Source: Candidatus Methylacidiphilum fumarolicum (GTDB lineage Bacteria; Verrucomicrobiota; Verrucomicrobiia; Methylacidiphilales; Methylacidiphilaceae). Taken from it: a stretch of 64,000 nt of DNA. The notes beneath the pieces were generated by a model that did not search any database, was not told where the DNA came from, and worked only from the letters and a program-made list of their open reading frames with translations. The translations under genes were made by a program, and so were the position numbers. Location: the NCBI RefSeq assembly GCF_949774925.1, contig NZ_OX458932.1, positions 434,001 to 498,000 on the forward strand, in the 5' to 3' direction. The stretch's first letter is position 1. Every line of letters begins with the position of its first letter. Below, piece after piece: positions 1-18,979 of this stretch.

Positions 1-675
1 ACGCTATGTATCGTGAATGGGGAGCTTTAGATGAGGGTCTCAATTGCCTTTCGGCTTCATCCATTATTCCGACGAGAAGCGGTTCAAGTTAGAAGGTGAA
101 GGTGAAATAGCAGGTCTCAATTGCCTTTCGGCTTCATCCATTATTCCGACGACTTTATCAGGAAAAAGTCTTCACCCTCAGGGCTTGGTCTCAATTGCCT
201 TTCGGCTTCATCCATTATTCCGACTATCTATCGAAAATTGGATGGGATTTACTTTGAACTTGTCTCAATTGCCTTTCGGCTTCATCCATTATTCCGACCT
301 TAAGCGGGGAAAACGGTCAGCAATCAAGATTAGAAGGTCTCAATTGCCTTTCGGCTTCATCCATTATTCCGACAAGTATTATTTCAATAACATATCATAT
401 GAGATCATGGGCAGTCTCAATTGCCTTTCGGCTTCATCCATTATTCCGACAAGAAGAAGTTACTCTGAAGTATGAGTGGGATAAATTGTCTCAATTGCCT
501 TTCGGCTTCATCCATTATTCCGACAGAGCTCATATGCTAACAAAAGGTGGGGTGATTTACGGGGTCTCAATTGCCTTTCGGCTTCATCCATTATTCCGAC
601 TTAAAGGAAGGCTTCATCAACTGAAAGCCGAAAAAGAAGTCTCAATTGCCTTTCGGCTTCATCCATTATTCCGAC
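1..675 (-). CRISPR. CRISPR array, type III-like, continues past left edge
   Basis: Nine identical 37-nt repeats begin at 37, 114, 188, 262, 337, 414, 488, 564 and 639, separated by eight spacers of 37-40 nt. Bases 1-36 look like one more spacer, so the array continues to the left. On the minus strand each repeat contains the hairpin GCC-GAAA-GGC (a GNRA loop) followed by AATTGAGAC. A cut one base after the stem would leave ATTGAGAC, close to the ATTGAAAC/G 5' handle common in type III crRNAs. That, and the AT-rich leader plus cas2 on the right, argue for minus-strand transcription. The strand is inferred; the repeats are read directly. Confidence 0.98.
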
Positions 676-974
676 TGCGGTCTTCTAACATCTTGATTAT
701 CAAAAAATAAAAAACCTCATAGGCATTGATTCCAATTTTATGTTGGTACAGTTTATGCTTTATATTAGCCCAAAAACACAGAAAGTTTAATAAGTCATTT
801 ATATTCAATAATATAACTTTAGGTATTGGCATGGCTATTTTTTAGTGGTTTGGTGTTAATACCTAAAAAACCATTTTTGCATTTTTAAACACAAAAAAAC
901 TACCGTCATTCTTTATGCAAGTAGAAGATACAAGCTAGGTAAATATAAAAATTTCTTCCAATTTGCAATAGAGT
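676..974 (-). promoter_or_regulatory. CRISPR leader (AT-rich, non-coding)
   Basis: This is the gene-free, strongly AT-rich stretch between the last repeat and cas2, where the leader should lie if the array is transcribed leftward. It holds an inverted repeat, TTTAGGTATT at 818-827 and AATACCTAAA at 858-867, and several A/T runs. No start codon or protein was recognised. The leader role is inferred from position. Confidence 0.6.
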
Positions 975-1250
975 TTATACCAAAAAGCAGATTACTTTTT
1001 CAGAACACACCATTGTTCCAGCAGTTCTAATCTCCTTTGCTAGTCTAGCATCTATTTTATAGGCGACAATCCTGTCTTCTTTAGGATCAATTTCCGCAAG
1101 CAGCTTTTGCCACAATTCTTCTAGTTCTGATTCTTCAAGATAACATTCGAAAACGCTAAACTGGACTCTTATTCCAAAATCTTCACAGATTTTGGCTATT
1201 TTATGTAGCCTTCGGTCATCACACACATCGTAAGCTATAACAGTAAGCAT
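975..1250 (-). CDS. cas2: Cas2 spacer-acquisition protein
   Basis: Cas2 forms the central dimer of the Cas1-Cas2 integrase that inserts new spacers. The protein has the usual beginning MLTVIAYDVCDDRRL with the beta1 Asp, and the family's FSVFEC segment, giving about 91 aa. The frame is open further up to an ATG at 1352, which would add 34 residues (WWYEAFAPAP region). I chose the ATG at 1250 because GGAG lies about 9 bp upstream and the length fits the family; the longer form cannot be excluded. It follows cas1 closely and sits next to the leader. Confidence 0.9.
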   Translation of the reverse strand: MLTVIAYDVCDDRRLHKIAKICEDFGIRVQFSVFECYLEESELEELWQKLLAEIDPKEDRIVAYKIDARLAKEIRTAGTMVCSEKVICFLV

Positions 1251-1357
1251 CTTATTATCTCCAGGAGGTTTTTTTTCTCTAGGTGCAGGTGCAAAAGCTT
1301 CATACCACCAATATGATGGATCTTCGTTCATTTTTTCTGTAGTTTTTTCCATTGTAG

Positions 1358-2365
1358 TTAATTCATTAAAAATGGTTCAAACTTGCTTGGATCTTCCAAA
1401 GCAGCTTTAAAAGAGCAAACACATCCTTCTAGTTGTGCTCTTAGAGTCGTTCTGGAGCCAGAAAATTCAGATTGAAACTGTCTTTCAAGTCTTGTTTCAT
1501 ATTGCGCAAGAAATTTTTTTCTTCCCAATTCGTTTAAATAACAGCCTCCATTTTTCTTTTCGAAATGTTCTTTATTGAGGATCTTATGGCTGAAAAGATC
1601 TAGTGCTAATGCTTCTACAATTACCGGTCTAAATGGCTCAATGAGATCTAAGGCAAGAGACCATCTTTCATTTTCTGGAGCATGCAAAAATCCTAAAGCT
1701 GGATCAAGACCATGAAGATGAATAAGAGCAGTCATTTCATTATAAAGAAGTGTTGCCCCGAATGAAATGCAGGCATTAACAGGATTGAGAGGAGGACGAT
1801 TTGATCGACGTTCGAAAGGAAATTCTTGTGGTAGAAATGTCGCCCAACATTGGAAGTAACGTGCTGTAGAGGCTCCTTCATAGCCTCTAATTTCGTCTAC
1901 GGTTGCTGCTGAAGCTACTTTAAAAAGAAGATGGTTAAGCCACTCGATATCGTTTTCATTATTAATTTTTCTATTTGAACTGAGTCTTTGAAGAGAGCGT
2001 CTTTGATTATAGATTTTGGCCTTAACTAACTGCTTTGAATAAGCAAGGACAGATTTAGGATCTAGACAATTCTGGTATTGTTTTAGCCTCCATAGTCCGT
2101 GGGAATTGGGAGGGGGAAAGAATCCTCCTAAGATTTGTCCATTAAAGCCTATAAAAGAAATAGGAATGTTTCTTAATAATAGTTCGCAAAGGGCAGGAGT
2201 AGTTATTGAGACGGTTTGGTCTAAAACAAGCCGTTCTAGTTCTCTTAGAGGAATTTCTCTGATAAGTTCTTCAGTGCCATTTTCTTTGTTATAACTAACG
2301 ACTTGAAGTCTTTCGGAACAAAGTGAAACTTTAGCATAGGTTTGCAGGATATAGGCTGAAGGCAT
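1358..2365 (-). CDS. cas1: Cas1 integrase
   Basis: Cas1 is the metal-dependent integrase of the adaptation complex. The 335-aa length is typical. The metal ligands expected for the family are visible: Glu163 in GYEGASTARYF, His228 in LGFLHAP and Asp240/Glu243 in ALDLIEPFRP. It has no fused reverse transcriptase, so there is no sign of spacer capture from RNA. It begins its own minus-strand unit with cas2, separated from the upstream CARF gene by about 130 bp that carry the GACGTC-type motif shared with the cmr operons. Confidence 0.96.
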   Translation of the reverse strand: MPSAYILQTYAKVSLCSERLQVVSYNKENGTEELIREIPLRELERLVLDQTVSITTPALCELLLRNIPISFIGFNGQILGGFFPPPNSHGLWRLKQYQNCLDPKSVLAYSKQLVKAKIYNQRRSLQRLSSNRKINNENDIEWLNHLLFKVASAATVDEIRGYEGASTARYFQCWATFLPQEFPFERRSNRPPLNPVNACISFGATLLYNEMTALIHLHGLDPALGFLHAPENERWSLALDLIEPFRPVIVEALALDLFSHKILNKEHFEKKNGGCYLNELGRKKFLAQYETRLERQFQSEFSGSRTTLRAQLEGCVCSFKAALEDPSKFEPFLMN

Positions 2366-2410
2366 AACAATTCATTTTTTGGGAAATATAAAATTATGAC
2401 TTTTTATTCT

Positions 2411-2438: not shown

Positions 2439-2493
2439 GAGCTATATGAGAAAGAAGGAAAAAACTGTAGGTAAGGGGAGTAATCTATTGATT

Positions 2494-3606
2494 TTAAGAA
2501 TTGTCTTTCATTTTGATGGAATTGGAAAGGCCAACTCCACTTCTAAGTGGAAATATGAGATCAACAAATTTATTTAACCCACGGTCGTTTAATTTCTTCC
2601 GTAGGTTACTTAAACATTTTTTGGAATCATCTTCATCAAAGTTAGAGTGTTCCGGAAATAAATGACTTAATTGCTGGTTTTTTTTCTTCCATTCTACTGC
2701 AAACACTTTGAAAGGTTTATCAACTTCTTTATGACAACCCAATGGCGGAAGATTTTTTTCCAAACGATCCCAAAGAAAAGCAAAGAATAAAAGCTCTTTC
2801 CCTTTCAACTTAATTTTCTTCTCATTAACGATCATTTCCCCAGTTTGCGAATCAAAGCCTACTTGAGGATAAAGCTCTTTTATTTCTTTTGAATACTGCC
2901 AGACAAGATCTGTAAACCGCCCCGGAAGTCTTCCAAATTCTTTAGGGAAAAGCTCTCTGAATTTTACAAAAGGAATATCTGCTAACTCAATTTTTGCGTC
3001 TTTGGCATAGACTATATTTCCTGTAATTGTTTTTAGGATCTGTTCTTTTTGTTGTGGAAAATAAAATTTAGGTTGTAATCTTGGATCATCATAAGGTTCG
3101 TTTACTAATACATGAGTTATCCTATCTCCTTTTCTGCCTAGCATAGAAACAGCACTATAAAGGAGGATGCCCATTGTTTTTCTACCTCCTGCTACGGAGG
3201 CAATAAGCTGAGTGTCAGGATTTTCTGTAATTTTCCGAACTTCCTCTAGAATATAATCTGCTGTTTCCTCATTGTCTTTAATGTTCCGGATATCCTCTAA
3301 TTCTAAGCATTTGCCTTGATCCAAGAAAGGTGAAACAATTACCTTAATTTCCCTTAGAATGTGAGAATCCTTCGGGATATTTTTTTCTTTAATTAACCAA
3401 TTTCTAAATTCTTCCCAAAGACATTTTCCTCTTGGCTCTAAAAGCTCTTTCTCGATCACTTTCTTTCCAATAGCTGTAGTAACAATGTCAATATATTTTG
3501 GATAAATAGGTGGATTTTCTTCTGCCAGTGCCCACAACGTTTCCGTAATAACGGCTGGGGATATCCCAATGACAGCGAGCAGAATGATCTCTTTGTTTTG
3601 ATTCAT
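2494..3606 (-). CDS. CARF protein, NE0113 family (possible ring nuclease)
   Basis: The 370-aa protein opens with a CARF-type Rossmann start (ILLAVIGISPAVITETLWAL) and has the ligand-site motif SVAGGRKTMG near residue 140. Both match the NE0113 family, often labelled Csm6-like ring nuclease. CARF domains bind cyclic oligoadenylate; some members of this family degrade it. The C-terminal ~140 residues look like a helical or winged-helix extension. I see no HEPN RxxxxH motif, so an RNase role is not supported. The ATG at 3606 nearly abuts the csx3 stop. It is last in the cmr operon. The exact activity is uncertain. Confidence 0.82.
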   Translation of the reverse strand: MNQNKEIILLAVIGISPAVITETLWALAEENPPIYPKYIDIVTTAIGKKVIEKELLEPRGKCLWEEFRNWLIKEKNIPKDSHILREIKVIVSPFLDQGKCLELEDIRNIKDNEETADYILEEVRKITENPDTQLIASVAGGRKTMGILLYSAVSMLGRKGDRITHVLVNEPYDDPRLQPKFYFPQQKEQILKTITGNIVYAKDAKIELADIPFVKFRELFPKEFGRLPGRFTDLVWQYSKEIKELYPQVGFDSQTGEMIVNEKKIKLKGKELLFFAFLWDRLEKNLPPLGCHKEVDKPFKVFAVEWKKKNQQLSHLFPEHSNFDEDDSKKCLSNLRKKLNDRGLNKFVDLIFPLRSGVGLSNSIKMKDNS

Positions 3607-3607
3607 T

Positions 3608-4561
3608 TCAGCTAATCAAAGACTGGATTTTCTTTATTAGTTCTTCGGGTAAAACAACCTCCTCAGGATTGATTCCTCTTTCCAGTTTCCCTAGTTTGAC
3701 GGTAAGGATAGGGGAAGAAGAAATAACTGTGGATATGTTTTCTTGAACGCTTTGAATTTGCGCAAGTAAATTCAGGCCTAGTATCTGAGTAGCTCCTCTC
3801 CACTCTGCAGCCAGAAGATCATCTCTGGAAACAATAAGCGCTGAATTACAGAGGCCTAAAATTTGATGGTTAAATCGATCAATCTTTCCCCCACAATCAA
3901 CGAAAAGAAGTCTTTTTGTCTTGGAAATTTCCTTAATATGCTGACAAATATTATCGACAAAAGACTGATTCCATTGATTCTTGAAACGCAGGGTCTTACT
4001 GTATGGATAAGCTTCATGAAACCAGTTGCCTTCTCCATCTGGACAGGCCCTAATGGTGTATGTTTTTTCCTGATAAAAGGAAATAGGCAGGATTCTTTTT
4101 AATGATTCTTGAAGGAGCATGAGAAAGACGGATTTGCCGCTGTGAGGGGGGCCAACAAGTGCAATGATGAGAGTAGAAGGAGGAGAAGAGGTCTTTGATT
4201 GGGCTGTAGACTGTACCGTATCTTGAAGTAGATTCTGATTGGATTCCACATGAGGCTGGATAACTTCTATTGGAATCACATAGCCCAGCTGAGGGGCCTC
4301 TATATGATGCGCTTCAATGATGATCCCTCCCATTCGTGGATCAAAGATAGCTATCCAGCGGCATGGATGGAATTGATGGACAAAAAATCCATAAATCCAT
4401 ATAGGGGCACGACCATACAAAATGACACCTTTTGCATAGTTAACTTTGGGCAGTTCTATGTTTTTCAAAATGGAAGCTTCTAGTATTCCATTGCCCGTAA
4501 TACTTATTTTTAGAATTTGAAAATCAGGAGTGTCTATAATTTTTAATTTAAGATTATTCAT
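3608..4561 (-). CDS. csx3: Csx3-AAA fusion (Crn3-type ring nuclease plus P-loop domain)
   Basis: Residues 1-100 match Csx3: GVILYGRAPIWIYG and VHQFHPCRWIAIFDPR include the His and Asp (His62, Asp74) of the conserved H...D pair in this family. Csx3 (Crn3) is a cA4 phosphodiesterase that dampens type III signalling. After a linker of about 30 residues comes a P-loop domain with Walker A GPPHSGKS (137-144) and a LLFVDCGG Walker B-like strand, as in known Csx3-AAA fusions. I use the ATG at 4561 (317 aa), which overlaps the end of csx1; an upstream TTG at 4591 is possible. The ATPase role is unknown. Confidence 0.85.
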   Translation of the reverse strand: MNNLKLKIIDTPDFQILKISITGNGILEASILKNIELPKVNYAKGVILYGRAPIWIYGFFVHQFHPCRWIAIFDPRMGGIIIEAHHIEAPQLGYVIPIEVIQPHVESNQNLLQDTVQSTAQSKTSSPPSTLIIALVGPPHSGKSVFLMLLQESLKRILPISFYQEKTYTIRACPDGEGNWFHEAYPYSKTLRFKNQWNQSFVDNICQHIKEISKTKRLLFVDCGGKIDRFNHQILGLCNSALIVSRDDLLAAEWRGATQILGLNLLAQIQSVQENISTVISSSPILTVKLGKLERGINPEEVVLPEELIKKIQSLIS

Positions 4562-5786
4562 GGTTCTGGAGGAGTTCTTCGATAGAATCAAGGGCTTTTT
4601 CTACCTGATTTTTTAATTCATTTGCCAATATTTCTTTTTTTCTTCCCATGCCGCAGTGCGCGAGATCATTTCTTACTTGTATTATTCGACTCCAAGCTTC
4701 TATAAGTTTTGGATCAAGGGAAGAAAGCTTGTTTTTGATATTTTCTTTGTCTTCTCTTGATTGAAGAGAATCTTCTGGGCGATTATTACGGATTTTGTGT
4801 CCCAAGTTATTAAGTATATTTTCAACCTCTTTTCTTTTTTCAGGATCATTCGAGTCATCTTGGATCACTTCGCATACATAACTTATGATCCATTCTCTAA
4901 GAAGGGTTGCACATTGCATAACATAACCGTGTTGAAGATATTTCTTAGCAAGCTCAATTTGACCATGAAGGCCATCGAAAGCTGTTGCTTTATATGTTTC
5001 TTTGACCTCGTCAATTACTAAGTCAAGTGGTTTAGCCCATTTATTAATCTCTTCTCGTAATTCTTGATTCTTCAGTATATCTTCAACTCTTTTACATATT
5101 TTTGGTATTTCTAAAACTCGACTGAGATTTAAAGCTAAAGAGAGATCTTTCAATGACGATCCAAGATTTTTGAGATGCGTTGGTTTTTTTTCCTCTTTAT
5201 CTTTTTCTTGATACAGCTCGTTTTGGATCTTATTTAACAATTTGGCGAATTCAGAAGAATCTCCAAGGTCAATGAATCTTTTACTTGCTCCAAGCCATTC
5301 AATTAGATCAAGAAATATAGAAAGATCAAACACAGGAGTTATATCATTTTTATTTGCTTCATAAGCTCCATAAAATATTCCTTTAATATTCACTTCTTTG
5401 ACTTGTCTAAGATAGACTATGGTACTAAGGGCTATTAAAGGTAAAGATCTATAACCATGGGTTATGTCTATGATAAGCTCAGATTGTTTGGGAATCATTT
5501 TAGCAATCGATTCAAAAATATCCCAAAGCTCTTGTTCTTCTTTTCCCTCTGGAATACAAATGATTTCGTATTTGAAGTTCTTAGCTTTAAATTCTTCTTT
5601 AAGCTCTTTCCAATTATCCCCATTTTCTATTTTCTTCGTAAGAGCCATAAATATGGTCTTAGGATGCTTTTCTAAAGCTAATGCTAGCGGGAAAAATTTT
5701 GTTTCATGATGTCTCCTTTGAGAAAAGGAATACTTAGTACTTCTATAATTTCCTGTACCAAGGAAAGACAGCTGAAGAAGATTCAT
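4554..5786 (-). CDS. csx1: Csx1/TM1812-family CARF-HEPN RNase
   Basis: The N-terminal CARF half has the TM1812 signature: LSFLGTGNYRSTKY at the start, then IIDITHGYRSLPLIAL near residue 105. The C-terminal half is helical and contains RNDLAH (Arg372-His377), the RxxxxH ribonuclease motif of HEPN domains. Family knowledge: cyclic oligoadenylate bound by CARF activates HEPN to cleave RNA non-specifically, causing dormancy or death of infected cells. The length (410 aa) is normal. It lies downstream of the cmr1 remnant and overlaps csx3 by 8 bp, so translation is likely coupled. Confidence 0.9.
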   Translation of the reverse strand: MNLLQLSFLGTGNYRSTKYSFSQRRHHETKFFPLALALEKHPKTIFMALTKKIENGDNWKELKEEFKAKNFKYEIICIPEGKEEQELWDIFESIAKMIPKQSELIIDITHGYRSLPLIALSTIVYLRQVKEVNIKGIFYGAYEANKNDITPVFDLSIFLDLIEWLGASKRFIDLGDSSEFAKLLNKIQNELYQEKDKEEKKPTHLKNLGSSLKDLSLALNLSRVLEIPKICKRVEDILKNQELREEINKWAKPLDLVIDEVKETYKATAFDGLHGQIELAKKYLQHGYVMQCATLLREWIISYVCEVIQDDSNDPEKRKEVENILNNLGHKIRNNRPEDSLQSREDKENIKNKLSSLDPKLIEAWSRIIQVRNDLAHCGMGRKKEILANELKNQVEKALDSIEELLQNHE

Positions 5787-5839
5787 GTTGTAATAAAGGT
5801 TGATAAGTGTGGATCTTTTTTAGTTTTTCCTAAAAATCA

Positions 5840-6569
5840 TCATAAAGGGGGTTTTGTTTTATTTGGATAGGATCTTATGAAAATAACCAATGCGTATTGT
5901 TCTAAGTACAAAGAAAGGTGGGAACGCAGAAGAATTGGTGATGGGTGTCGAACTAATGTATCCCTGTTGGGTGTGATACTTTGACTTTGTTTCTTCCACC
6001 AATTCCATAAAGTTGATAGAATTGGATTTGGTTTAGCCTCAGAAAAGTTTGTGTTTTGTTTTTGCATTATATGAATATTGTCTTTTTTCTTAAAAAAATT
6101 GAGAGCCCTCTTCTATAGCTAAAGAAGAGGATACTGTGGTAAAAGTCATAGCACCAAACTCCTTGCTGGATTTAGCTCCAAGAGCTCTTAAATGAATCCA
6201 GATATTAATTAAAGTGTGCATGTTACTTAGCGCATCATTTAGGGAACTAAAAGGAGAAGGTGCACCTTTCCATCTTACCTGTAATTTAAACTTGGAGTCT
6301 TGTTCGATGGCTTGCCTATTTTTGGGCTTGCCTGCTCCAAGATTCTCCTTGGACTTTCTTTTGCTTCTATGCACTGAGAGGGCTTTTATGATTGGTTTTG
6401 AAGCTAAAGAACTGCTTACTGCTGAACCAAAGATATTGCTTTCTAGTTTGCAAGCGTCTTCACTTAGACAATTAAACCCTCCAAGCAACCTTAGCCACCA
6501 GCGAAGCTGCCCACGAATAAATGGCACTCTTACTTCAGCTTTTCTAGAAAGTTCTGCTTTCTTTCGCAT
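5840..6569 (-). pseudogene. cmr1: Wrecked cmr1 copy of the main cmr operon
   Basis: A 159-aa piece starting at 6569 carries the Cmr1 signature VRVPFIRGQLRWWLRLL and continues to LGAKSSKEFGAMTF, aligning to roughly residues 50-205 of the intact Cmr1 at 17.5-18.8 kb. The first ~50 residues are missing. A second open piece at 5840-6067 contains HPSPILLRSH and YALVIFIRSYP, matching the C-terminal SPVLLRPY and VVIFLEPY of the intact copy. About 180 residues between them are lost. The position right after cmr6 is a usual place for cmr1. I infer decay of the original copy, with the distal copy taking over. Confidence 0.85.
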
Positions 6570-6608
6570 AGCAGTCAGTAATGAATTCGATCAGATAGGT
6601 TTTAGAAA

Positions 6609-8030
6609 TCATGGCAGGCGTTCCTTTCTATTCTTAGCAATCTCTTTAAGTTTTTGAGAGATGTTCGCCCACTTTTTTCTAACTTCTTTTTTTGGACTTT
6701 GTTGAGCAGCCTTGTTAATTTCTTCCCAGACTCCGGGTTTATGCTTTTTTATGCATAGGTAGAAAACTAGCTGCTGATTTGCATCACTTTTAAGGAAATC
6801 GTTGATTAGTTTGTCTTTAAATTGTTGATCATTTTTTTCAGAATGAAGCTTAAAAGCTTCTTTTTCTTCTGGACTCATCCCTTTTGTTGCTTCTTCAAAT
6901 TTCTGCTGTTTTTTCTCCTTTTCTATTTTTCTTCTTTCTTCTTCTTCTTCCTTTTTTCTTTTTTCCTCTTGTTCCTTTTGTCTTATTTCCTCTTCTTTTC
7001 TTATCTTCTCTAGCTTTTCTTCAACCTTATTTGTGCAATCCTTAAACCACCCGTAACCCGCAGCTGTTTTTGCTCCAATACCAAAGGATTCCAATCCATT
7101 TTTGAGCCATTCTAGAGCAAAATCTTTTACTTTTCCATTAGCCCGCCTCGTAGAAGGATGGATACAGAAACAAAAGATAAGATAAGGACTAACAGCTGGG
7201 AAAAAGACCGGAATAGGATCTTCTTTGTCCCATGCATCCTCCCAGCCTGTTTCATGAGAATAATATTTTTGATGATGACATGTAATAACGTCAAGTTCCA
7301 GTTCATTTCCCACTAGCTTTTTTTCTTCTGTAGGATAGAAATTTTCTGGAATGGGATAAGCAGGCAAGAAGCGAATAGTGCCAGCATAATTGGGAACAGT
7401 TTTAATGAGTTGGTTTCGGAGTTTATCATCTGTCTTAGTAGGAATGGACATGGCTTCTAATACAAGCCCTGCCGCTTGATCAACAACATCATCAACAAGG
7501 GGGGGGGTATTAGAACAGCCATAATAAAAATCAGAATTATTCTCGTTTTTCCAGTCCAATTCAGACCAGCCAAACACAAGAGCAATTTGACTTAAAAGCT
7601 GTATTTTCTCATGCTCAGAAGCCTCTAAAAGCTTTTCTATAGCCATTCTCCTGGCACAGCCTTTGGCTGCACTACCAGGGATATACGGAATTCCAAAACG
7701 GTCTAGACATAACCCAGCGTTTTCAAGGACTCCACCAGCCATGTTAACCATCATTCGAGATTGTAATTGGGCAAAGAGTAAGCTTGCATCTTTGAGTTTG
7801 CTATAAAGACTATTCCAGATTGATTGAAGCCTGTATTTTGTTATGTTCGGATTTTTTATATTAATTGCTGTAGAAAATTGAGCTTTTCGTTCATCCTTTT
7901 TAATTCTTGGATCGATGTATTTTTCAAGAAGAAGGGAGCGTGATTCAATAGATATTGTATTCAGCACGCTTTCTACATCATTAATGAGCAATAACTTATC
8001 TTTCTTAGCTACATTATCATTCATAGACAT
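6609..8030 (-). CDS. cmr6: Cmr6, type III-B RAMP subunit
   Basis: Cmr6 is a RAMP-fold protein near the head of the Cmr complex, contacting Cmr1 and the target 3' region. The family core is at residues ~100-130 (GGVLENAGLCLDRFG, then IPYIPGSAAKG) and ~340 (FGIGAKTAAGYGWF), the glycine-rich RAMP loops. Unusual is the long charged region at ~345-400, almost all Glu/Lys/Arg, predicted as a coiled coil, followed by ~70 helical residues; at 473 aa the protein is clearly longer than typical Cmr6. The start is either the ATG at 8030 or 8024, behind AGGGG. It begins 3 bp after the cmr5 stop. Confidence 0.92.
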   Translation of the reverse strand: MSMNDNVAKKDKLLLINDVESVLNTISIESRSLLLEKYIDPRIKKDERKAQFSTAINIKNPNITKYRLQSIWNSLYSKLKDASLLFAQLQSRMMVNMAGGVLENAGLCLDRFGIPYIPGSAAKGCARRMAIEKLLEASEHEKIQLLSQIALVFGWSELDWKNENNSDFYYGCSNTPPLVDDVVDQAAGLVLEAMSIPTKTDDKLRNQLIKTVPNYAGTIRFLPAYPIPENFYPTEEKKLVGNELELDVITCHHQKYYSHETGWEDAWDKEDPIPVFFPAVSPYLIFCFCIHPSTRRANGKVKDFALEWLKNGLESFGIGAKTAAGYGWFKDCTNKVEEKLEKIRKEEEIRQKEQEEKRKKEEEEERRKIEKEKKQQKFEEATKGMSPEEKEAFKLHSEKNDQQFKDKLINDFLKSDANQQLVFYLCIKKHKPGVWEEINKAAQQSPKKEVRKKWANISQKLKEIAKNRKERLP

Positions 8031-8033
8031 CCC

Positions 8034-8399
8034 CTAGGAAGAAGACGATTTTTTCTCCGAAAACCGCTTCAGATAGGCAAGATACTTGAGGGTTTCATAA
8101 GTAGCCTGCTGAAGGTCTAATGAAGAACCCTTGGTTATTAGTTGGTGGAGCATTTCTTTAGCTGCATTGTTATTCTCTTTGATATCTTTTAGAATATTTC
8201 GTTTGCTAAGGTATTCAGCGACTGCGTCCATAGCAATTTTAAGAGGCTCTCTTTCAGGTTTTTCTTCACAAACAAAAGCAAGCGTGGCTAACAATCCATT
8301 AGAAACAATAAGTCCTGGAAGCCGATTGACAGATTCTTTCTTAAGTCCTTCTGCTTTTTTTAAAGCATGTTTAGCCCGAAGAATTTCCAGATTATCCAT
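8034..8399 (-). CDS. cmr5: Cmr5, small helical subunit
   Basis: Cmr5 forms the minor inner filament of the Cmr complex that lines the crRNA-target duplex. The 121-aa, mostly helical protein has the family pattern: a basic N-terminal helix (LRAKHALKKAEGLKKE), RLPGLIVSNGLLATLAFV, and YLAYLKRFSEK at the end. The start overlaps the end of cmr4 by 8 bp, indicating coupled translation. The length is normal. Confidence 0.93.
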   Translation of the reverse strand: MDNLEILRAKHALKKAEGLKKESVNRLPGLIVSNGLLATLAFVCEEKPEREPLKIAMDAVAEYLSKRNILKDIKENNNAAKEMLHQLITKGSSLDLQQATYETLKYLAYLKRFSEKKSSSS

Positions 8400-9342
8400 T
8401 ATTGCTTTCTCCTTCTTTGTGGGTTGTTTTGGTTAAATAGGTAGTGCAATATCCAAGGCCAGTACCTGCATCAGCTCCAAACTGGAAAAGATAATTTTTT
8501 TCTTTAATTTTTTTTTCAAGAACTTCAATAGGTTTGAAAGAATTCTCATTTCTTGATGGTCCTTTCCGAACTATGCTGTAGAAAGCTGTTTCAGATGGAA
8601 CATTTTCCTGATTAAATAAAGCCCCACTTTCTGCCGTACCCGTCTTGTCATTTATTTTTACATGTTGTGCTATTTCACATGCTGACTGCGTAAAAAAGCT
8701 CATCATGCTGTCACTCACAATAACGAGTCGATTTCCTATTTCCTTCCAAATAGGATCAATAGAAACAAGATCAACAGGAAGCTGATTTACAAACGCTTTG
8801 ATTATTTCTTCGGAGTCCTCTTGGGTTTTTTCAAAGATATATTCTTCAAGAATTACTTTTTCTTTTCCTCCTTCGTTAATGCAGAGACAGCTTTCTTTTT
8901 TAAACAAAGCCTTATTGTCACTAAGTTGAATGGAATCTAGAATTGTCTGTCCGGTATCCCGACAGTAACGTTTCAGTATCAGCGGACAAGTGATCCAACC
9001 AAAACAGCCTTTTGGGGATCGAATAGGAAATAGGAGAAGTTTTGCTTCCGAAAATTGAAGCATCCCTCCTTTTTCCTCTGTTCCAAAAAGATCTTTTCCT
9101 TCAGTATTTCTTTGATAAATGTGTTCCTTAATCTCAGCATCATTGCTTTGATAAGTGTTTTCATTAATCTCAATCCATTCATCAGCAAATACGCCTTTTA
9201 AAGCACTTCCTGGAATAATAGGAAATGCTGTATGCCGTTCTCTAATGATGGGTAAGTCAATGGCTCCGACTGATCCACCAGAGCCAACGTGGAGAGAAGT
9301 ACGAGTAAAAAGATAAATTATTGCGCTTTCACTGGTTGCCAT
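8392..9342 (-). CDS. cmr4: Cmr4, backbone RAMP and target-RNA cleaving subunit
   Basis: Cmr4 repeats along the crRNA to form the backbone and cuts target RNA at 6-nt intervals. The N-terminal signature is intact: TRTSLHVGSGGSVGAIDLP, then IIRERHTAFPIIPGSALKG. Asp29 in this loop corresponds to the catalytic Asp of the family, so target cleavage should be functional. The C-terminal glycine-rich loop is FGADAGTGLGYC. Length 316 aa, normal. AGGAG lies 9 bp before the ATG. The 97-bp gap from cmr3 is the longest inside the operon. Confidence 0.95.
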   Translation of the reverse strand: MATSESAIIYLFTRTSLHVGSGGSVGAIDLPIIRERHTAFPIIPGSALKGVFADEWIEINENTYQSNDAEIKEHIYQRNTEGKDLFGTEEKGGMLQFSEAKLLLFPIRSPKGCFGWITCPLILKRYCRDTGQTILDSIQLSDNKALFKKESCLCINEGGKEKVILEEYIFEKTQEDSEEIIKAFVNQLPVDLVSIDPIWKEIGNRLVIVSDSMMSFFTQSACEIAQHVKINDKTGTAESGALFNQENVPSETAFYSIVRKGPSRNENSFKPIEVLEKKIKEKNYLFQFGADAGTGLGYCTTYLTKTTHKEGESNNG

Positions 9343-9410
9343 TGCTTTATCTCCTGCTTTTATTTTTTTTCAAGACTAATATCATGAAGATTTTTAAAAT
9401 GTCTTTCATA

Positions 9411-9439: not shown

Positions 9440-10738
9440 TCATGTAAACTCAAAGTAATCCCAAGTGCCACAAAGCCCTAAACCAAAGCCTTTTTCCCCA
9501 TAATAATCCGATCGGCATCTTTCATGGAGGGCTTGAAACAGAGATTTTGTATCCTCTTCTTTTTCTGTCTCAAAATAGTAGACAGAGCCTGGAGGAACGG
9601 CCAATAAGGTGGGTCTAGGTCCTTTCTCTAAAACTTCCCAACCTCCAATTATAATTGGTTTACCAATGCGCGCTGCGACAAGAGTTGCCTTAATAGGCGG
9701 GGCTTCGTCTTTTGAAGGATCATATTTCCATTCACGATCGCTTCTGCGCTGCTTTCGGAACACCCGCCTCTTTTCTTTGTCAATAGCGCGCAAAAGCACA
9801 TTTTCTTTTTGTTTTTGAGGATCGATCCAACCAGGAAGCCATCCTTGACTAAAGATCGCTGGACTAAGAAGAACCCATTTAAGTCGCGTTGTCTTTAGAT
9901 CATTGACATCAAGGGAAGGGAAGAGGAGTGGTTCTTTGACCTTTTCTACTTTAAAGAATCGATCTTCGCCACCTACAGTAATTGTTTCTTGATTGAGACA
10001 TTCGATAGGGCTCTCATCTGGATTCTGAAGTTTATAGAAGGGCGGATCATTGATAGAAAAACACAATCTTATGCCTTCTCTAAGTCTTAAATGTTCAGCA
10101 GCAAAAAGTTTACTTTCTTCGACAGTTTGAGTTTCTGGATTAATTCCAATCCCAATTCTATATTCTGAGTCCCAAAGCTCTTTGTCCCCGCTGCATTCAC
10201 TAGAATTTATCTCATTTAATTTGTCTTCTAAGTAGTATTTATAAAACTCAGAAGAGACGAAGGATGGCGGTCTTACTTTAGAAGGTGGATCTTGAGAAAC
10301 AACAGGGTATCGAAGCGGATTGGGTAAATTGGACTTACATTCAGATAAATTAAACATTTCTGTTTGCTTTAGAGGTCTTAATAGCTTTGAGGGTTTTAAT
10401 GACCTGTTGTTTTCTTGATGAATGCACCAAGAGATGTCTAAAGGGGTAGGGAAAAAAAGCCTGTGTTCCTTTCGATCCACTGGGAAAGGACCTTTGATAT
10501 GCAGCCAATTGTAAGCCTCTGTTCCTATTTTGCCTTGAGATTTGCCTCTTCGTTCGTAGCCATTCTTTTTTTCTGTGGGGGTTAAACCCGAGAGGGAAAG
10601 CAAAGCAGAACGTATAGCCGAATGGATTGTCAACGGTAGAGGCCACCGAGCTCCTCGACCATAACTACTCCCAGCAGCCAGAGGTTTGCTATCACGGAAA
10701 AAGCAGGTGTCAAAAGGAATAAGATCAAAAGTTGTCAT
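9440..10738 (-). CDS. cmr3: Cmr3, crRNA 5'-handle-binding RAMP
   Basis: Cmr3 pairs with Cas10 and holds the crRNA 5' handle. The start MTTFDLIPFDTCFFRDSKPL is the classic Cmr3 opening (FRDxRPF-type motif), followed by GRGARWPLPLTIHSAIRSALL and a C-terminal GLGLCGTW loop. I place the start at the ATG at 10738 (432 aa) rather than the open extension to 10810, because 10738 matches the family start and overlaps the cas10 stop as ATGA, a typical coupling signal. Confidence 0.93.
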   Translation of the reverse strand: MTTFDLIPFDTCFFRDSKPLAAGSSYGRGARWPLPLTIHSAIRSALLSLSGLTPTEKKNGYERRGKSQGKIGTEAYNWLHIKGPFPVDRKEHRLFFPTPLDISWCIHQENNRSLKPSKLLRPLKQTEMFNLSECKSNLPNPLRYPVVSQDPPSKVRPPSFVSSEFYKYYLEDKLNEINSSECSGDKELWDSEYRIGIGINPETQTVEESKLFAAEHLRLREGIRLCFSINDPPFYKLQNPDESPIECLNQETITVGGEDRFFKVEKVKEPLLFPSLDVNDLKTTRLKWVLLSPAIFSQGWLPGWIDPQKQKENVLLRAIDKEKRRVFRKQRRSDREWKYDPSKDEAPPIKATLVAARIGKPIIIGGWEVLEKGPRPTLLAVPPGSVYYFETEKEEDTKSLFQALHERCRSDYYGEKGFGLGLCGTWDYFEFT

Positions 10739-13731
10739 CCAATGGCTCCTTTCGTTTTGAAGAATGCGAAGGTGATAAGTGGACCAAGAAAATCGTGGAG
10801 TTTTGTACAATGGTCTAAGTAGTTAGATAAGACTTTAATAAGTATTTCTTTGCCTTTGGAATCATTGGTTTTTTCCTCTTTGACTGAAAAATGTTGATCC
10901 ACTGCGAAACGGATGTCGTTTTTAATAATTTCCTTTACTTGCTCATTAAGCTCATCATTTCCATACTGAAAATAGCAAGAAACAAGTTCAGCGATTCTGT
11001 AGGGGAGTTTTCCAGAAATTCGATTATTTTCATAGAGTTCTTGGAGCTCATTGAGGATTTCTAGAGGAAAAGAGGTTTCTTTTTCTTCTTCTTTAGAATG
11101 GTTCCATTTAGATCCCCATTGGGCAATCTCTCCCGAACGTTTAAATAGATTAACAACAAAAGCTGACTTGCCATATCCAGAAGATTTGGCAATTTCTAAG
11201 GCATTTTTGGCTTCTTCAACTAAATTTTGTAAAGGGCTATGAATATGCCCAATGGCAATTCCTGCAGAAATATCTGCATTCTTGCCCATGAGAAGAAGAG
11301 GATAGCCTTGAGGAAGAAACTTATCGACTGATTCACACTTCCACATTTCTTTCCATCCTTCCCATTTCCCATCAATACTAACGAAACCCCACTGGTGCGG
11401 TGGGGCTTTAAGTGCTCCATAAAAACTCTCTGAGAGAGTGGGATCACCGCGAAAAGCTTTTCTTAAAACATAGGCACATTGTAATGCCTTTTCAGCTGGG
11501 AGCATGGCCAGAATATCATCCCCTCCAGAATAAATAAGCTGGCCATAATGTTGGTGGACGATGGATGGGGCAAGATAGAGAGAGAAATTGGCTAGGGCGC
11601 TGCTTAATTCTATATGATAACTAGGAAACAAGGGCCTTTTGGTTTTTAGAATTTGTTGAAGCTCTAAGAGTTGTTGATTATTAAAGTATTCCTTAGCTTC
11701 TTTGGAAAGCTGAGTATGAAAACAAGGAGATTTCTCTCCGCTTAGCCATTTACCCATAGAATCCCCATCCATAGCTAAAATGGCTATGTAAGGAGTAGGC
11801 TCAGAATTTAATCTTTTTTGAAGTGTTTTAAGATGTCGGAGTGCATTTTCTGAATTTTCACGTTTTCTTGAAGTTGGATTTTTATCTTTATATCTATCTT
11901 CTTTATATTCCTCTTTAAGACGTCTAAGTTCAGAGGTGAAACAGAAAGAGGGATATTCTTTAAGGAATTCTTCCGGGCTCTGAAATTTTTTCTCATCTAT
12001 TTTTATTTCTTCTATTTCACCGTTTTCATAGGCCTTCTGAAGTGATTGAACAAAATCATTACAATATTTGTTAATATCATGATCTTTATCTAATTGTTTT
12101 AGAAGAACTTCTTTAACCCAGGAATTAGCAGCAACATCTGGGACAGATTCAAATATTTTAGGCTTGAAAGATAAATTGGCATTTTTGTAAGTCTTTTTTA
12201 AATAAGCTTCATCCCAAATTCTTTTAATAATATTGATGGCTCCTAACCTTTCACCTTCCTTAAACGTGTGCTTGATCTTATCATGCAAGCTCTTTTGCCA
12301 GTTTTCATCCCCAATACACTCCTCTTTGCCTGAATACATGTCCTTAGGCACTCCAAAACGGCTTCGAAATTCGTTGGAATTGGGATCTCCAAAAAATTTG
12401 AAATCACGAATGTTTCTTCGACCTTCATGAAGGAAATCAGTCATTGCATAATGAGCTGACCAACAGAATCCAATATTCTCAATGATAGGATGACCTTCAT
12501 TGTCATACTTATAATTACGAGGATCTCTGTCTTCCTTGGGAATATTAAGCGCACATTGATATACATCGTCTAGATCTTTAGCAGAATCGCTAGCAGGAAG
12601 TTGCTTAAACAAAGCAATTGCTTTGTTAACATCTTTTTCCCATGGATAGACCTGCCAAGAAATGAAAAGAAAATCTTCGATTTGGTCATTCCATCTTTTT
12701 TGAATGTTATCATTCCATTCGATGCCTTTTTCCTTTGTTAAATACTCAACACAATATTTGCTAATTTCTTCTAGCTTATTTTGTAGTTCTTTTTCAATGG
12801 ATTGTGAAAGAACTTCTGCTTTGTCATCAGGGATAAGAGCAAGGAAGCGATTAGGAAAGTTAGGAGTTAAAATAAGTCCAAGAGGATAGTCAAATTCAGT
12901 GTCCCAGAGAGATTTATTGTCTTTTGTTTTGATCTTGTTATAAAGTTCATCCATGTGCAACCAATCAAAGAGTGGTTGGCCGTAGAGTGCTGGAAATATT
13001 ACAGCATCAGGACCTAAACGATCCGTCAGTGCCTTTATTGCATGAGCAATTAAATAGGAAAGGAGATAGCTACCACTCCATAGGTCTTTTGTTTTTCTGG
13101 CTTGAGCAATGAATTCTTGGACTGGGCCAATTTGGAAAAGTAGAAATGCTGGATTAATTTTGGTGTCAGCCTCATCGATTTTTTCCACACATCCTTGTAG
13201 AGCACTGGTAATTGAACAATGAGTCCAGATAGTGTGATCAGGGATTCTGGTATCTGCAGGCATAAATGCCAAGCTTGGATGTTTCTCTGAGATAAATTTT
13301 TTCCATAGTCGCCAATGAAGAAAAAAATTTGCCCATTCTTTACCAATTCTTTTCTCAAAACCATTAAAGTCTTTGTCATCTATTCCATTGAGATCATATA
13401 TCGGCTGAACTTTAATGACATCGTCTTCAGCTATCTCAGGATTAATAGGGTTTTGAAAGATGAGTTTTCCTCCACCAAGAGTGTGATAGTAAGGTGAATC
13501 TTCATTTCCTTTAAAATCAGCATGTAATACCCTTGGTTTAGGAAAGATCAATCGATCTGCCGATGCAGCAATATGATCAGTAATCTTATCAAATAAAACT
13601 CTTGCTTCTACGTATTCATACCCAGCATGCTGGATAATCTCTTTAGAAATTTCTTCATGTTCCTGGATCTTAAAAGGTTTGGTTGGAGGATCATGAACAA
13701 AAGCAAAAAATTTAGATTTCCAAAAGTTCAT
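10735..13731 (-). CDS. cmr2: Cas10/Cmr2, cyclic oligoadenylate synthase
   Basis: This is the large type III-B subunit, 998 aa. The N-terminus has FVHDPPTKPF with His13-Asp14, the HD nuclease-type start; whether HD is active is uncertain, as many Cmr2 proteins have degenerate HD sites. The first Palm element is AMDGDSMGKW near residue 653; the second Palm has the intact GGDD (about 735-738, in YSGGDDILAML), the site that makes cyclic oligoadenylates from ATP when target RNA binds. This is the signal for Csx1 and Cad1. First gene of the cmr operon; the ATG at 13731 lacks a clear Shine-Dalgarno and is 43 bp from the GACGTC motif. Confidence 0.97.
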   Translation of the reverse strand: MNFWKSKFFAFVHDPPTKPFKIQEHEEISKEIIQHAGYEYVEARVLFDKITDHIAASADRLIFPKPRVLHADFKGNEDSPYYHTLGGGKLIFQNPINPEIAEDDVIKVQPIYDLNGIDDKDFNGFEKRIGKEWANFFLHWRLWKKFISEKHPSLAFMPADTRIPDHTIWTHCSITSALQGCVEKIDEADTKINPAFLLFQIGPVQEFIAQARKTKDLWSGSYLLSYLIAHAIKALTDRLGPDAVIFPALYGQPLFDWLHMDELYNKIKTKDNKSLWDTEFDYPLGLILTPNFPNRFLALIPDDKAEVLSQSIEKELQNKLEEISKYCVEYLTKEKGIEWNDNIQKRWNDQIEDFLFISWQVYPWEKDVNKAIALFKQLPASDSAKDLDDVYQCALNIPKEDRDPRNYKYDNEGHPIIENIGFCWSAHYAMTDFLHEGRRNIRDFKFFGDPNSNEFRSRFGVPKDMYSGKEECIGDENWQKSLHDKIKHTFKEGERLGAINIIKRIWDEAYLKKTYKNANLSFKPKIFESVPDVAANSWVKEVLLKQLDKDHDINKYCNDFVQSLQKAYENGEIEEIKIDEKKFQSPEEFLKEYPSFCFTSELRRLKEEYKEDRYKDKNPTSRKRENSENALRHLKTLQKRLNSEPTPYIAILAMDGDSMGKWLSGEKSPCFHTQLSKEAKEYFNNQQLLELQQILKTKRPLFPSYHIELSSALANFSLYLAPSIVHQHYGQLIYSGGDDILAMLPAEKALQCAYVLRKAFRGDPTLSESFYGALKAPPHQWGFVSIDGKWEGWKEMWKCESVDKFLPQGYPLLLMGKNADISAGIAIGHIHSPLQNLVEEAKNALEIAKSSGYGKSAFVVNLFKRSGEIAQWGSKWNHSKEEEKETSFPLEILNELQELYENNRISGKLPYRIAELVSCYFQYGNDELNEQVKEIIKNDIRFAVDQHFSVKEEKTNDSKGKEILIKVLSNYLDHCTKLHDFLGPLITFAFFKTKGAIG

Positions 13732-14639: not shown

Positions 14640-15340
14640 ATAGCTTTACGTTACTGAAAACATGGATGCCTAGGCTGGAGGCTTGCAAAAAAAGTAGGAG
14701 AAGCTCATATTTTCCCAGGAGTCGATTCAGCCCCAGAGGGATCTTGGGACAAAGACAAACGACTGGTTCGTCATTGACAGAGAGAAAGGCTCAATCAGAT
14801 CGACTGGAGGCATCCCTCTACCTTGGGAACGTCTTCGAAAACGTCCGAGCTTGCTCCATTTGGTGGCTAAGAGAGTCGTCATTTCATAGGTCAGGAAGCA
14901 GATCAGAGGAAAAAGCCGGAGAACGGGTTCGACAAAAGAGCCGGGGAGAAGCGAGAGAGGTTGAACGTGTCGTTCGGAGCATTTGGGGCAATGGTCGGAG
15001 ACAAAGCGGAAGAGGTTTGTATCGGATAGCTGGAAGAGCAGGCAAGGACGTTGATACCAAGTCTGAGAGACCACTGGTGCGGCGGTATTGTGAAAAAGAC
15101 CCTGGGTGAGCTGTGGAATGAGTGAGTCAGCTGGGCCTTCTGCTATCGGGAGGAAAACTCGCCGTTTTGAGCTTCTTGATTGGGTCTTGACGAAATGGAT
15201 GAAGAACCACGGCTTGGCCTTTTTGAGTCAGAAGGTCGTTGTATACGGAAAGGAATGGACGGGAAGCAATCAAAGCGTGGAGCGGGAAGCTCTGGTAGGA
15301 TGGAGAATCTGCTAAAAGGCTGGAAGTCTGCGAGCCGATG
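14640..15340. other. GC-richer decayed island between cas10 and cad1
   Basis: This ~700-bp stretch is visibly richer in G/C than the AT-rich sequence on both sides and has several moderately long open frames on both strands, none with a recognisable domain or a sensible start. It resembles the style of the decayed TnpB-like island at 19.4-21.5 kb, suggesting mobile-element debris. The rest of 13,740-15,590 is AT-rich and shows no gene that I can support apart from the 13,976-14,188 fragment. Confidence 0.3.
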
Positions 15341-15593
15341 AGACTACAATAAAACTTTTCTCCGTGATGCGCAAAACTCTATTCCCAGAGCCGTCAGGCT
15401 TGGATGGAGTAGTTCATGGAATGCAAACTTGTGTGGATTGAAAGAATGCAATAATCCACAAGAAGCAGCCCTAAGATAAGGTATTATTGCGTTGAGAATA
15501 CTTACTAACACAGCAAATGAGGTTTGTTACTCCACCTCTCACCTTTCCTCAAGGATTTAAGGCGAATTTAATGCAATATGAAAAAAAAAAGTT

Positions 15594-17480
15594 TTAAGAA
15601 GGCTCATTAAAGAGAGCAAGGTTGGTTGGAGTGAGTAGGTTTTTTTGTATTTTGTGAATCAGCTCTGTTCGAAGCTGATGGGGGAGAAAAGCTATCTGAC
15701 AAGCGTGGTTTAAGAGTTTGAGGATATCGAGCCGACGGATCCCAGGACAAAGCTCAGCCAAAAATAAGAGATTATCCGTTAAGCTGCCCTTACTAATACC
15801 AATGTTATCAGTGTTGACCGTAACATAGACGCCCCGATTTAGGTATTCTTTTAATGGATATGTGTTCTTGTTGTTTTCCATGGGCTTAAATCCATGGATT
15901 TGATAATTGGCTAATGGACACATTTCGATTCCAATATGTCGGTCAATAACAGTGTTCAGCAGATCTTGAGATTTCAAAAGATGAAGTGCATGCCCGATCC
16001 TTCTGGCATGGAGTCGAAAAATTGCTTGCCATATTCCCTCAACGTCATCGATTTCACCAGCGTGGGCTGTAACAGCAAGTCCGCAGCGGTGAACAGGGAC
16101 AAAATCTTCTGCAAAGTAAGAAGCACGAGTTTTGGGGCTTTCAAGGCCAGCTAGGTCCACTCCGACCACGCCACAATAACTTTCTTTTGGTGGAAAATGT
16201 TGCGCAGCTGTAACGGCAAGGGATAAATGACGACTAATATCCGAAAGATCTCCTTTATCCTTGCGAGTGACAATGATGATGAGATTAACATGACAGTAAG
16301 TGTCAGCACCTTGATTCTCATTCATGCATTGCTGGAAATGATCGCGAATTTCGCAAAGAACAGTCCAAGCAGATCTTCCTTTGGAGATATTAGTGTAATT
16401 GTTAGGAGAAGTTCGAATTTCTGCATACACAACACGGTCTTTTTGAAGAGCTTGGTATAAAAGTCTGCATTGTTCTTTAAGACACCCAGGGTCCTTAAGA
16501 AGATCGGTTCCTGTAGCCCTACCTAATTCCATGTATGTTTCAAGGCCAATAGGCTTAGCTGGCCGAGGCCAGCCCTCAGGTAAAGGTGGCTCTAAAAGAT
16601 GAGGCAGTGAGGAGGGAGCTTCTGCGCTTGAGCGAACCTGCGCTAGCAACTCTCCATGTGTGGCAAAGCCGCCCAAATGACAGTGCAGTTCTACCTTTGG
16701 AAGCTTTTCGATCCATTCTTTGTCTCTTTTAGGATCCAAGGGCTCATTCAACCAATCGAGTTCTTTGGGAGTCCAACGGGCTAAAACTGGAAAAGGTAGC
16801 TCTGAAAGCCGGCCCCAATTGTAATGGATCCGGAGAGAATAGTCTTGAACTTCGTTAATTTTTTCCTGTAATTTTCGGTCAGCCACTGTAGCGAGATATA
16901 ATCGAGGTTTTCTCTCAATCTCGTTCAGTGGAAATTCTTCGAATGACAGCTTTTTTAGTTGTGTCCATCCCTTTTCATTGCCCAGGGAAACAAACTTAAT
17001 TTTGTTAGTCTTTAAGGCTTCTTTGACTTCTTCCATAGAGGAGGGGAAAGGTTCCTCTGCTAAAACATCAAAGACATATTTAGCTCCAAATAAAGAAGCC
17101 CCTTTAAGGAGAGCCGCGCTCATCGTCTTTCGCCCACTGGCTATACACACATAGACAGTGGCTCTTTGTATATGCTTAAGAAACCACCGATAGAGGACCT
17201 CTTGAAAAAGAAAATAATCCTCCTGACTGCAAATATCTGCGCATTCATCGACTTGGGTAAATGTATAGATGAGGCCAGGAAAATGGATTTTTAGGCACTG
17301 CTCAATATTTTGAAAGCATTCTTCAGCTTCTGGATTACAGGTAGTAAGTAAGTGAACTTCATCAAGCTTTTGGTGGTAGTGATTAACGAAGTAAAGCGCC
17401 TCTACAGCAATGAGCCAGGTTTTGCTAAGGGTACTGCCAAGCGTACATAAAAGCACATTTTTTTGAGGAGAAGAATCCAT
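15594..17480 (-). CDS. cad1: Cad1-type CARF-adenosine deaminase fusion, type III effector
   Basis: The 628-aa protein has an N-terminal CARF domain (start NVLLCTLGSTLSK; ligand motif ASGRKTM at 114-120) and a metal-dependent adenosine deaminase domain from about 259. Deaminase motifs in order: His266/His268 in VELHCHLGG, YAEIRTSP (352-359), VDLAGLE (441-447), His473 and Glu476 in TAHAGE, His497 in RIGHALH, Asp558 in NTDN. These give the zinc ligands and the catalytic Glu. Known family: Cad1 binds cyclic oligoadenylate through CARF and deaminates ATP to ITP to stop phage growth. The canonical second Asp of NTDD is Asn559 here. GAGG for its ATG overlaps the cmr1 stop, so the two genes are translationally coupled. 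The activity here is inferred from the domains. Confidence 0.92.
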   Translation of the reverse strand: MDSSPQKNVLLCTLGSTLSKTWLIAVEALYFVNHYHQKLDEVHLLTTCNPEAEECFQNIEQCLKIHFPGLIYTFTQVDECADICSQEDYFLFQEVLYRWFLKHIQRATVYVCIASGRKTMSAALLKGASLFGAKYVFDVLAEEPFPSSMEEVKEALKTNKIKFVSLGNEKGWTQLKKLSFEEFPLNEIERKPRLYLATVADRKLQEKINEVQDYSLRIHYNWGRLSELPFPVLARWTPKELDWLNEPLDPKRDKEWIEKLPKVELHCHLGGFATHGELLAQVRSSAEAPSSLPHLLEPPLPEGWPRPAKPIGLETYMELGRATGTDLLKDPGCLKEQCRLLYQALQKDRVVYAEIRTSPNNYTNISKGRSAWTVLCEIRDHFQQCMNENQGADTYCHVNLIIIVTRKDKGDLSDISRHLSLAVTAAQHFPPKESYCGVVGVDLAGLESPKTRASYFAEDFVPVHRCGLAVTAHAGEIDDVEGIWQAIFRLHARRIGHALHLLKSQDLLNTVIDRHIGIEMCPLANYQIHGFKPMENNKNTYPLKEYLNRGVYVTVNTDNIGISKGSLTDNLLFLAELCPGIRRLDILKLLNHACQIAFLPHQLRTELIHKIQKNLLTPTNLALFNEPS

Positions 17481-18761: not shown

Positions 18762-18802
18762 AATGACCTTTTTATTATATGGATCTAAGAATAAAGCTTT
18801 TT

Positions 18803-18979
18803 TCACAAGTACTCAATAATGCTTTTTACAGAATCCTTTCTATCATACAAGCTACCTAAAGGTGGTTTCATTTTGCTTGTAAAGCTGTTTCCAACACTAC
18901 TATTAGCTCTTCTAAGTAAAAGAGGCTGGACATTAAGAAGGAAAGAAAGAATGGAAAGTAAAGGAAATAGTATTTTCAT
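18803..18979 (-). CDS. Possible 58-aa leader ORF ahead of cmr1-cad1
   Basis: The frame reads MKILFPLLSILSFLLNVQ, a hydrophobic start, then a basic tail ending KSIIEYL. Its ATG at 18979 lies 43 bp from the near GACGTC-type hexamer, exactly the distance seen for the cas10 ATG. No Shine-Dalgarno is visible for either. It matches no family that I know; it may be a small membrane peptide, a gene remnant, or chance. An upstream ATG at 19006 is also in frame. Confidence 0.3.
   Translation of the reverse strand: MKILFPLLSILSFLLNVQPLLLRRANSSVGNSFTSKMKPPLGSLYDRKDSVKSIIEYL

Follow-up and report, generated by a model that had tools for sequence, protein, structure and literature searches.

A type III-B CRISPR locus of Candidatus Methylacidiphilum fumarolicum with a full set of predicted alarm-molecule sensors, including a candidate regulator encoded upstream of cas1

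Several described systems resemble parts of the CRISPR locus reported here. One is the type III-B locus of Thermoanaerobaculum aquaticum, which encodes both the ribonuclease Csx1 and the deaminase Cad1 (PMC12669630). A second is the group of proteins known as Csx3-AAA or Csx3', in which Csx3 is followed by a C-terminal P-loop domain and which III-B loci encode next to Csx1 and CARF proteins (PMC7371418, PMC12409355); a figure legend in the former reports both the long form of Csx3 and its occurrence as a neighbour of Csx1 and further CARF proteins. Proteins with a CARF domain followed by a winged helix include the archaeal Csa3a and Csa3b, with links to cas1-cas2 and cmr (PMC7480081, PMC8699464), and the crenarchaeal Sso1393/Sis0811. 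Here we describe a III-B locus on the minus strand of a 64,000-nucleotide stretch of Candidatus Methylacidiphilum fumarolicum (contig NZ_OX458932.1, positions 434,001 to 498,000; hereafter the window), with emphasis on its NE0113-family protein. The host is a thermoacidophilic methanotroph with a one-contig genome of 2,476,671 bases.

The locus is a well-equipped system of a known kind, with Cas10/Cmr2, Cmr3 to Cmr6 and two copies of Cmr1, one broken and one intact, and Cas10 keeps GGDD, the predicted cyclase motif. Otherwise ordinary for type III-B, it has an unusually complete set of sensors for alarm molecules. It shares Csx1 and Cad1 with the T. aquaticum locus, although neither a Csx3-P-loop protein nor NE0113 is named for the latter in the available part of PMC12669630. 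The Csx3-P-loop protein has no difference of substance from Csx3-AAA or Csx3', and given the legend in PMC7371418 a stack of this kind has a precedent. The best claim of this locus to interest is NE0113, a candidate cyclic oligoadenylate (cOA)-responsive regulator of the memory genes. Its predicted domain structure is best read as that of a regulator gated by cOA and possibly limiting itself, which would be to bacteria what Csa3 is to archaea. We put at about one in two the probability that the locus uses one cOA, likely cyclic tetra-adenylate (cA4), and that NE0113 is a cOA-responsive regulator near cas1-cas2 and not a killing effector.

NE0113 is a clear family member (TIGR02584, E value 4e-57, with both TIGR02584 and PF09623 over cut-off), and its AlphaFold2 model, built from 74 rows, has a predicted local distance difference test score (pLDDT) of 93.8 and a predicted template modelling score of 0.81. 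A fold search with residues 4–246, which cover the CARF part, gave the Cad1 CARF domain as the best VIA match (Z 15.3, 164 residues, 3.0 Å), with Crn1 ring nucleases at Z 14.6 and 14.4 and weaker matches to Csm6 (Z 12.3), Sso1393/Sis0811 (Z 11.8), Csa3 (Z 9.8) and Csx1-Crn2 (Z 9.1). After the CARF domain the model has short strands and a helix, in strand-strand-helix order, then more helices and a wing-like end. A profile of the 74 C-termini is similar to that of five OmpR regulators of the same genome (hhalign probability 86, E 4.7e-6), in keeping with an OmpR-type winged helix, and three of four plasmid-borne NE0113 proteins of other phyla share this profile. In a Pfam tally of the same C-termini Trans_reg_C was the commonest weak match (6/74, best E 0.0056), followed by HTH_36 (5/74). 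The C-terminal part of the PADLOC CARF5-CARF_TM model also matches an OmpR-type regulator in three Methylacidiphilum genomes (two inspected). The label "CARF_TM" for NE0113 was rejected, as the C-terminal halves contain no stretch of transmembrane grade: the maximum over 19 residues on the Kyte-Doolittle scale has a median of 0.96 and a highest value of 1.58, and the most hydrophobic stretch (1.96, from residue 7) is in the region of the first CARF strand.

The CARF motif residues are strongly conserved among the homologues, with K143, G140 and G141 present in 74/74 and S16 in 71/74. The serine and lysine are expected of CARF ring nucleases, so that NE0113 may limit its own signal, and a serine and a lysine (S12 and K169, according to the entry titles) are also the positions altered in Sis0811 ring nuclease depositions. 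It shares these residues and the domain order with Sso1393/Sis0811, but differs from them in its bacterial origin and in the lower structural match noted above. Its likeness to Csa3 is in the order of CARF domain and winged helix and in the linkage to cas1-cas2 and to cmr genes; it differs in that its CARF domain is structurally nearer to Cad1 and Crn1, its winged helix is OmpR-like, and it belongs to a bacterial type III-B system whereas Csa3 belongs to archaeal type I-A systems. Csa3a is also reported to lack the ring-nuclease lysine that NE0113 keeps, and not to cleave cA4 (PMC8699464). The family-model scans listed no Csa3 family for NE0113, which would thus work like Csa3 rather than be one. 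A 2014 paper predicted that NE0113 proteins regulate transcription (PMC4012209), and the literature searched yielded no tested function for them. A profile search of the PDB with A2 gave no match at 0.01, a first genome scan with a single sequence gave none, and viral scans confirmed no viral relatives of NE0113 or of the Csx3-P-loop protein.

The position of the gene was compared among 86 loci, comprising the window, five loci of related genomes and, out of 277 relatives confirmed in named genomes, the best 80 (89 loci were at hand, and L024, L027 and L028 were dropped because they lie on the same contigs as L089, L092 and L110). Twelve of the 86 have less than 700 nucleotides downstream of NE0113 and ten have no cas gene downstream. 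NE0113 is the nearest detected same-strand gene upstream of cas1 (within 1.6 kb) in 42 of the 53 cas1-holding loci, with no other large open reading frame between them in 39 of the 42; Cad1 takes this place in only two of thirteen loci holding both. NE0113 is co-oriented with cas1-cas2 against oppositely directed Cmr genes in L092, L101 and L134, and in L151 and L096 NE0113 is opposite to cas1-cas2. The ten open reading frames upstream of NE0113 that were picked by hand gave eight matches to CARF4-nuclease models, one to CARF1-HEPN, and one without a match. The Csx1 family of the window is present in 6/86 loci, and only the window combines it with Cad1 and NE0113; in several other loci CARF4-nuclease effectors occupy that position.

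Several observations weigh against a regulator of cas1-cas2. The relatives were gathered by similarity to this NE0113 protein, and in a sample spread evenly over phyla (27 loci, L059–L085, counted separately; ten are also among the 80) NE0113 precedes cas10 in 13 and cas1 in three. On the plasmids of four organisms from other phyla cas1 is directly downstream in 0/4. The cas1 linkage is thus lineage-bound; NE0113 lies upstream of cas1 and is often co-transcribable with it, and the adjacency may reflect operon order only. Taken by itself, the C-terminal fragment of the window protein has no Pfam match. A comparison of 12 intergenic stretches from three Methylacidiphilum genomes revealed no operator palindrome common to them, and the K143/S16 pair would fit a ring nuclease equally well. 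The two locus counts are reconciled by a tree of 89 rows (short, long or broken homologues excluded), in which a 61-row branch (support 100/97) holds 38 of the 39 cas1-type rows, including the window, and one of the 22 cas10-type rows, the other 21 being outside it. Independent gains of the cas1 link are not borne out, as the tree gives mostly one deep branch, and the 42 of 53 loci are therefore not independent events; rather, there are two NE0113 wirings, each of them old. Sulfolobus Csa3b, reported to repress adaptation and activate cmr genes (PMC7480081), provides a precedent for both, and overexpression of a methanogen CARF-winged-helix protein is reported to raise a cas1-solo transcript (PMC7465815). 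A more specific and more tentative proposal is that in a deep branch of the Planctomycetes-Verrucomicrobia-Chlamydiae group NE0113 is a cOA-gated, self-limiting transcription switch that acts on cas1-cas2, its counterparts in other branches acting on cas10, in parallel with Csa3.

The remaining sensors bear on the nature of the signal. A preliminary description of this DNA, made from the sequence alone, had named Csx1, Csx3-AAA and NE0113, and all three are minus-strand open reading frames with family matches far above cut-off. Csx1 (TIGR02221, E 3e-34; PADLOC CARF2-HEPN, E 8e-110) has a CARF2 domain and the HEPN RxxxxH motif. Csx3 (TIGR02579, E 4e-23; PADLOC Csx3-AAA, E 1e-53) is in a frame spanning 3608–4591 with a likely ATG start at 4561 that overlaps the Csx1 stop. 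Aligned with Archaeoglobus fulgidus Csx3 (AF1864), it keeps eight of nine catalytic and binding residues taken from PMC7371418 (G45, R46, I49, H57, H60, D69, R71 and H80, with S44 replaced by Tyr), residues that are essential in the A. fulgidus protein and the family-defining H60, D69, R71 and H80 among them, and it is a predicted Crn3-type ring nuclease, in agreement with the earlier suggestion. The fusion to a P-loop domain also holds, but "AAA" is a label and not a result: over window positions 3608–4192 the AAA_22 and GTPase models are all below cut-off, DO-GTPase2 is a weak match in 7/7 members, and GTPase Der is reached by profile at E 0.0013. The predicted structure of the protein, from an alignment of two rows only, has a pLDDT of 44. 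A second, stand-alone Csx3 is encoded in the genome outside the window (G000:C1:2030377-2030838; L202 9378-9839), in a 154-codon frame at a great distance from the CRISPR locus, with a TnpB-like fragment nearby; it shares 56% identity with the locus copy over the Csx3 domain and keeps the catalytic residues.

Cad1 (PADLOC CARF5-CARF_ADA, E 5e-215) has a CARF domain and an adenosine deaminase domain with its metal-binding motifs, matches its closest solved entries over nearly the full length (E about 1e-191) with a four-residue insert in the motif-I loop relative to the closest solved Cad1, and aligns its K118 with K106 of the T. aquaticum enzyme (TaqCad1). The locus thus has a ribonuclease and a deaminase effector, both with intact motifs, and a further CARF protein, NE0113, as had been proposed. 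Cad1 is in the same locus as the other sensors but not beside them, being 9.8 kb away past the Cmr operon and an insertion sequence (IS)-like remnant. The CARF motifs were also correctly read, with AGGRKTM at NE0113 residues 139–145, ASGRKTM at Cad1 residues 114–120 and DITHG in Csx1. The likeness of NE0113 and Cad1 apart from Csx1 is real and is already known as a clade: PADLOC assigns both to CARF5 and Csx1 to CARF2, and the similar motifs follow from the common CARF5 membership, with which the structural match of the NE0113 CARF domain to Cad1 agrees.

Cas10 enzymes can make mixtures of rings, and this, together with the split of CARF5 from CARF2, would favour an account with two ligand classes, in which Csx1 and Csx3 act on cA4 and Cad1 and NE0113 on another ring such as cyclic hexa-adenylate (cA6). 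The preliminary description had seen in the motif likeness a hint of two classes, and as a conclusion from that likeness we reject this, because a CARF clade does not have a fixed ligand even within Cad1: BabCad1 prefers cA6, which would suit two ligands, and TaqCad1 and LngCad1 prefer cA4 (PMC12669630, PMC11645235). TaqCad1 is reported to bind cA4 at 13 nM and cA6 at about 1.4 µM, and resides in a III-B locus whose Csx1 is cA4-activated (PMC12669630). Co-occurring effectors of multi-effector loci are reported typically to share an activator (PMC11229360), published Csx3 is cA4-specific, and in the available part of PMC12409355 the ring nucleases of effector-holding loci are found only alongside cA4 effectors. 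By analogy with these relatives a single cA4 signal is most likely, as the simplest account of the locus, and two ligand classes are decidedly unlikely. The number of CARF proteins is not the number of signals, and one messenger can serve effectors, an off-switch and a regulator in one stack. NE0113 could alternatively act mainly as a slow ring nuclease of the CARF type and so add to Csx3 another off-switch, with its winged helix aiding only dimerisation. NCBIfam names TIGR02584 "ring nuclease", the CARF domain is closest to those of Cad1 and Crn1, the lysine and serine are conserved, and Sso1393 is described as a CARF ring nuclease with a winged helix (PMC8699464), which in Sso1393/Sis0811 may likewise serve dimerisation. 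However, only 10 of 242 ring-nuclease-positive loci are reported to hold more than one (PMC12409355), this genome already has the Csx3 of the locus and an orphan Csx3, and NE0113 has a strong positional link to cas1 or cas10; we regard this explanation as rather unlikely, and prefer the cOA-responsive regulator.

The locus might also be a decaying composite whose parts are relics of a system that is no longer fully functional, as could be suggested by the broken native cmr1, by the IS remnant between the two blocks and by the heavy losses in the sister strain Kam1. Identity between the window and Kam1 (G004) is 86% for Cas1, 70% for NE0113 and 67% for Cmr4. Cad1 is 48% identical between the window and the genome G002, and between G002 and Kam1 it is 77% identical across 341 residues and 52% within the CARF part. 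The cmr1 copy beside cad1 is nearest to that of a distant locus (L101, 37%), the Kam1 copy being only 30% identical, while the broken copy in the main operon has its nearest relative in Kam1 (40%), and cmr1 and cad1 are close together in several other loci. The simplest reading of these similarities is a joint arrival of cmr1 and cad1 next to an insertion sequence, with the native cmr1 breaking meanwhile, and the window Cad1 seems to be a later arrival together with a foreign Cmr1. In Kam1 (L021 9582-13992) only remnants of csx1 and csx3 are left and cad1 runs through several frames, but NE0113 is intact; this decay differs from PMC6688271, where the Kam1 and SolV CRISPR regions are called highly similar and apparently functional. 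The CRISPR locus of G002 has lost both csx1 and csx3. The effectors change and the NE0113-cas1-cas2 unit stays. In the window, however, the other open reading frames are intact with catalytic motifs present wherever inspected, the second cmr1 is intact, and 29 of the 30 array repeats are perfect, and we consider a relic improbable.

Under the regulator reading, Cmr guided by CRISPR RNA would meet its target RNA and Cas10 would make cA4, which would switch on RNA cleavage by Csx1 and conversion of ATP to inosine triphosphate by Cad1, these activities being assigned from published relatives. Csx3 would cut cA4 and end the alarm, and its P-loop domain might adjust oligomerisation. The NE0113 CARF domain would read, and perhaps slowly cleave, the messenger and move the OmpR-like winged helix, which would control nearby transcription, most likely of cas1-cas2, and infection signalling would thereby adjust spacer acquisition. 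The case for NE0113 as a regulator is built on gene order, profile similarity and the predicted structure; that it binds DNA, which promoter it would target and in which direction it would regulate are inferred. When type III systems acquire spacers is little explored in bacteria, and a CARF domain with a DNA-binding-type domain has stayed beside cas1-cas2 over deep divergence, outlasting the effectors in a sister strain. If the proposal is true, type III interference in bacteria signals to the genes of memory formation, a role that Csa3 has in archaea, and the question is open to test with a single purified protein, a single messenger and a DNA of 128 bp, the length of the gap between NE0113 and cas1 (2366–2493).

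The features of the locus are listed in Table 1. From upstream to downstream the order is the second cmr1, cad1, a gap with the IS-like remnant, cas10, cmr3, cmr4, cmr5, cmr6, the broken cmr1, csx1, csx3-P-loop, NE0113, cas1, cas2 and the array, inside which the window opens.

Table 1. Features of the III-B locus, in window coordinates.
Feature	Position	Strand	Evidence or remarks
CRISPR array, part	33..689	none	9 of 30 repeats (37 nt); remaining 21 left of the window
cas2	975..1352	-	TIGR01573, E 1e-16
cas1	1358..2365	-	TIGR00287, E 1e-76
NE0113-family protein, 370 amino acids	2494..3606	-	TIGR02584; CARF about 1-215, predicted OmpR-like winged helix about 246-370
Csx3/Crn3 with P-loop NTPase-like domain	3608..4561	-	motifs GPPHSGKS and LLFVDCGG
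Csx1, CARF2-HEPN ribonuclease	4554..5786	-	motifs DITHG and RNDLAH
Native cmr1, broken	5993..6627	-	homology to Kam1 Cmr1 across three successive frames
cmr6	6609..8030	-	TIGR01898, E 1e-28
cmr5	8034..8399	-	PF09701, E 7e-17
cmr4	8392..9342	-	PADLOC Cmr4, E 2e-54
cmr3	9440..10810	-	assigned from operon position and homology to the open reading frame between cas10 and cmr4 in related loci
cas10/cmr2	10735..13731	-	TIGR02577, E 2e-79; GGDD at residue 736
Insertion sequence remnant	14908..15420	none	similarity to other genome copies
Cad1, CARF5 and adenosine deaminase	15594..17480	-	motifs HCHLGG, HAGE and NTDN
Second cmr1, intact	17490..18806	-	TIGR01894, E 3e-12; more similar to the copy of a distant locus than to that of the genus

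The whole array (G000:C1:432445-434675) has 30 repeats in the genome and so 29 spacers, compared with the 23 given for SolV in Table 1 of PMC6688271. The IS remnant is 75–80% identical to 16 other near full-length sites in the genome, and TnpA- and TnpB-like frames were recognised by eye in the two copies inspected. An Rfam scan of window positions 1–20000 gave no match. In G002 there is an orphan full csx3-P-loop gene (L203 9559-10536) about 90 kb from the CRISPR locus, adjoining a 1496-codon frame. In L026 (8616-8849; G007) cas1 is apparently truncated to a 78-codon piece, whereas the close relative L027 has a full frame, and both loci encode identical NE0113 proteins.

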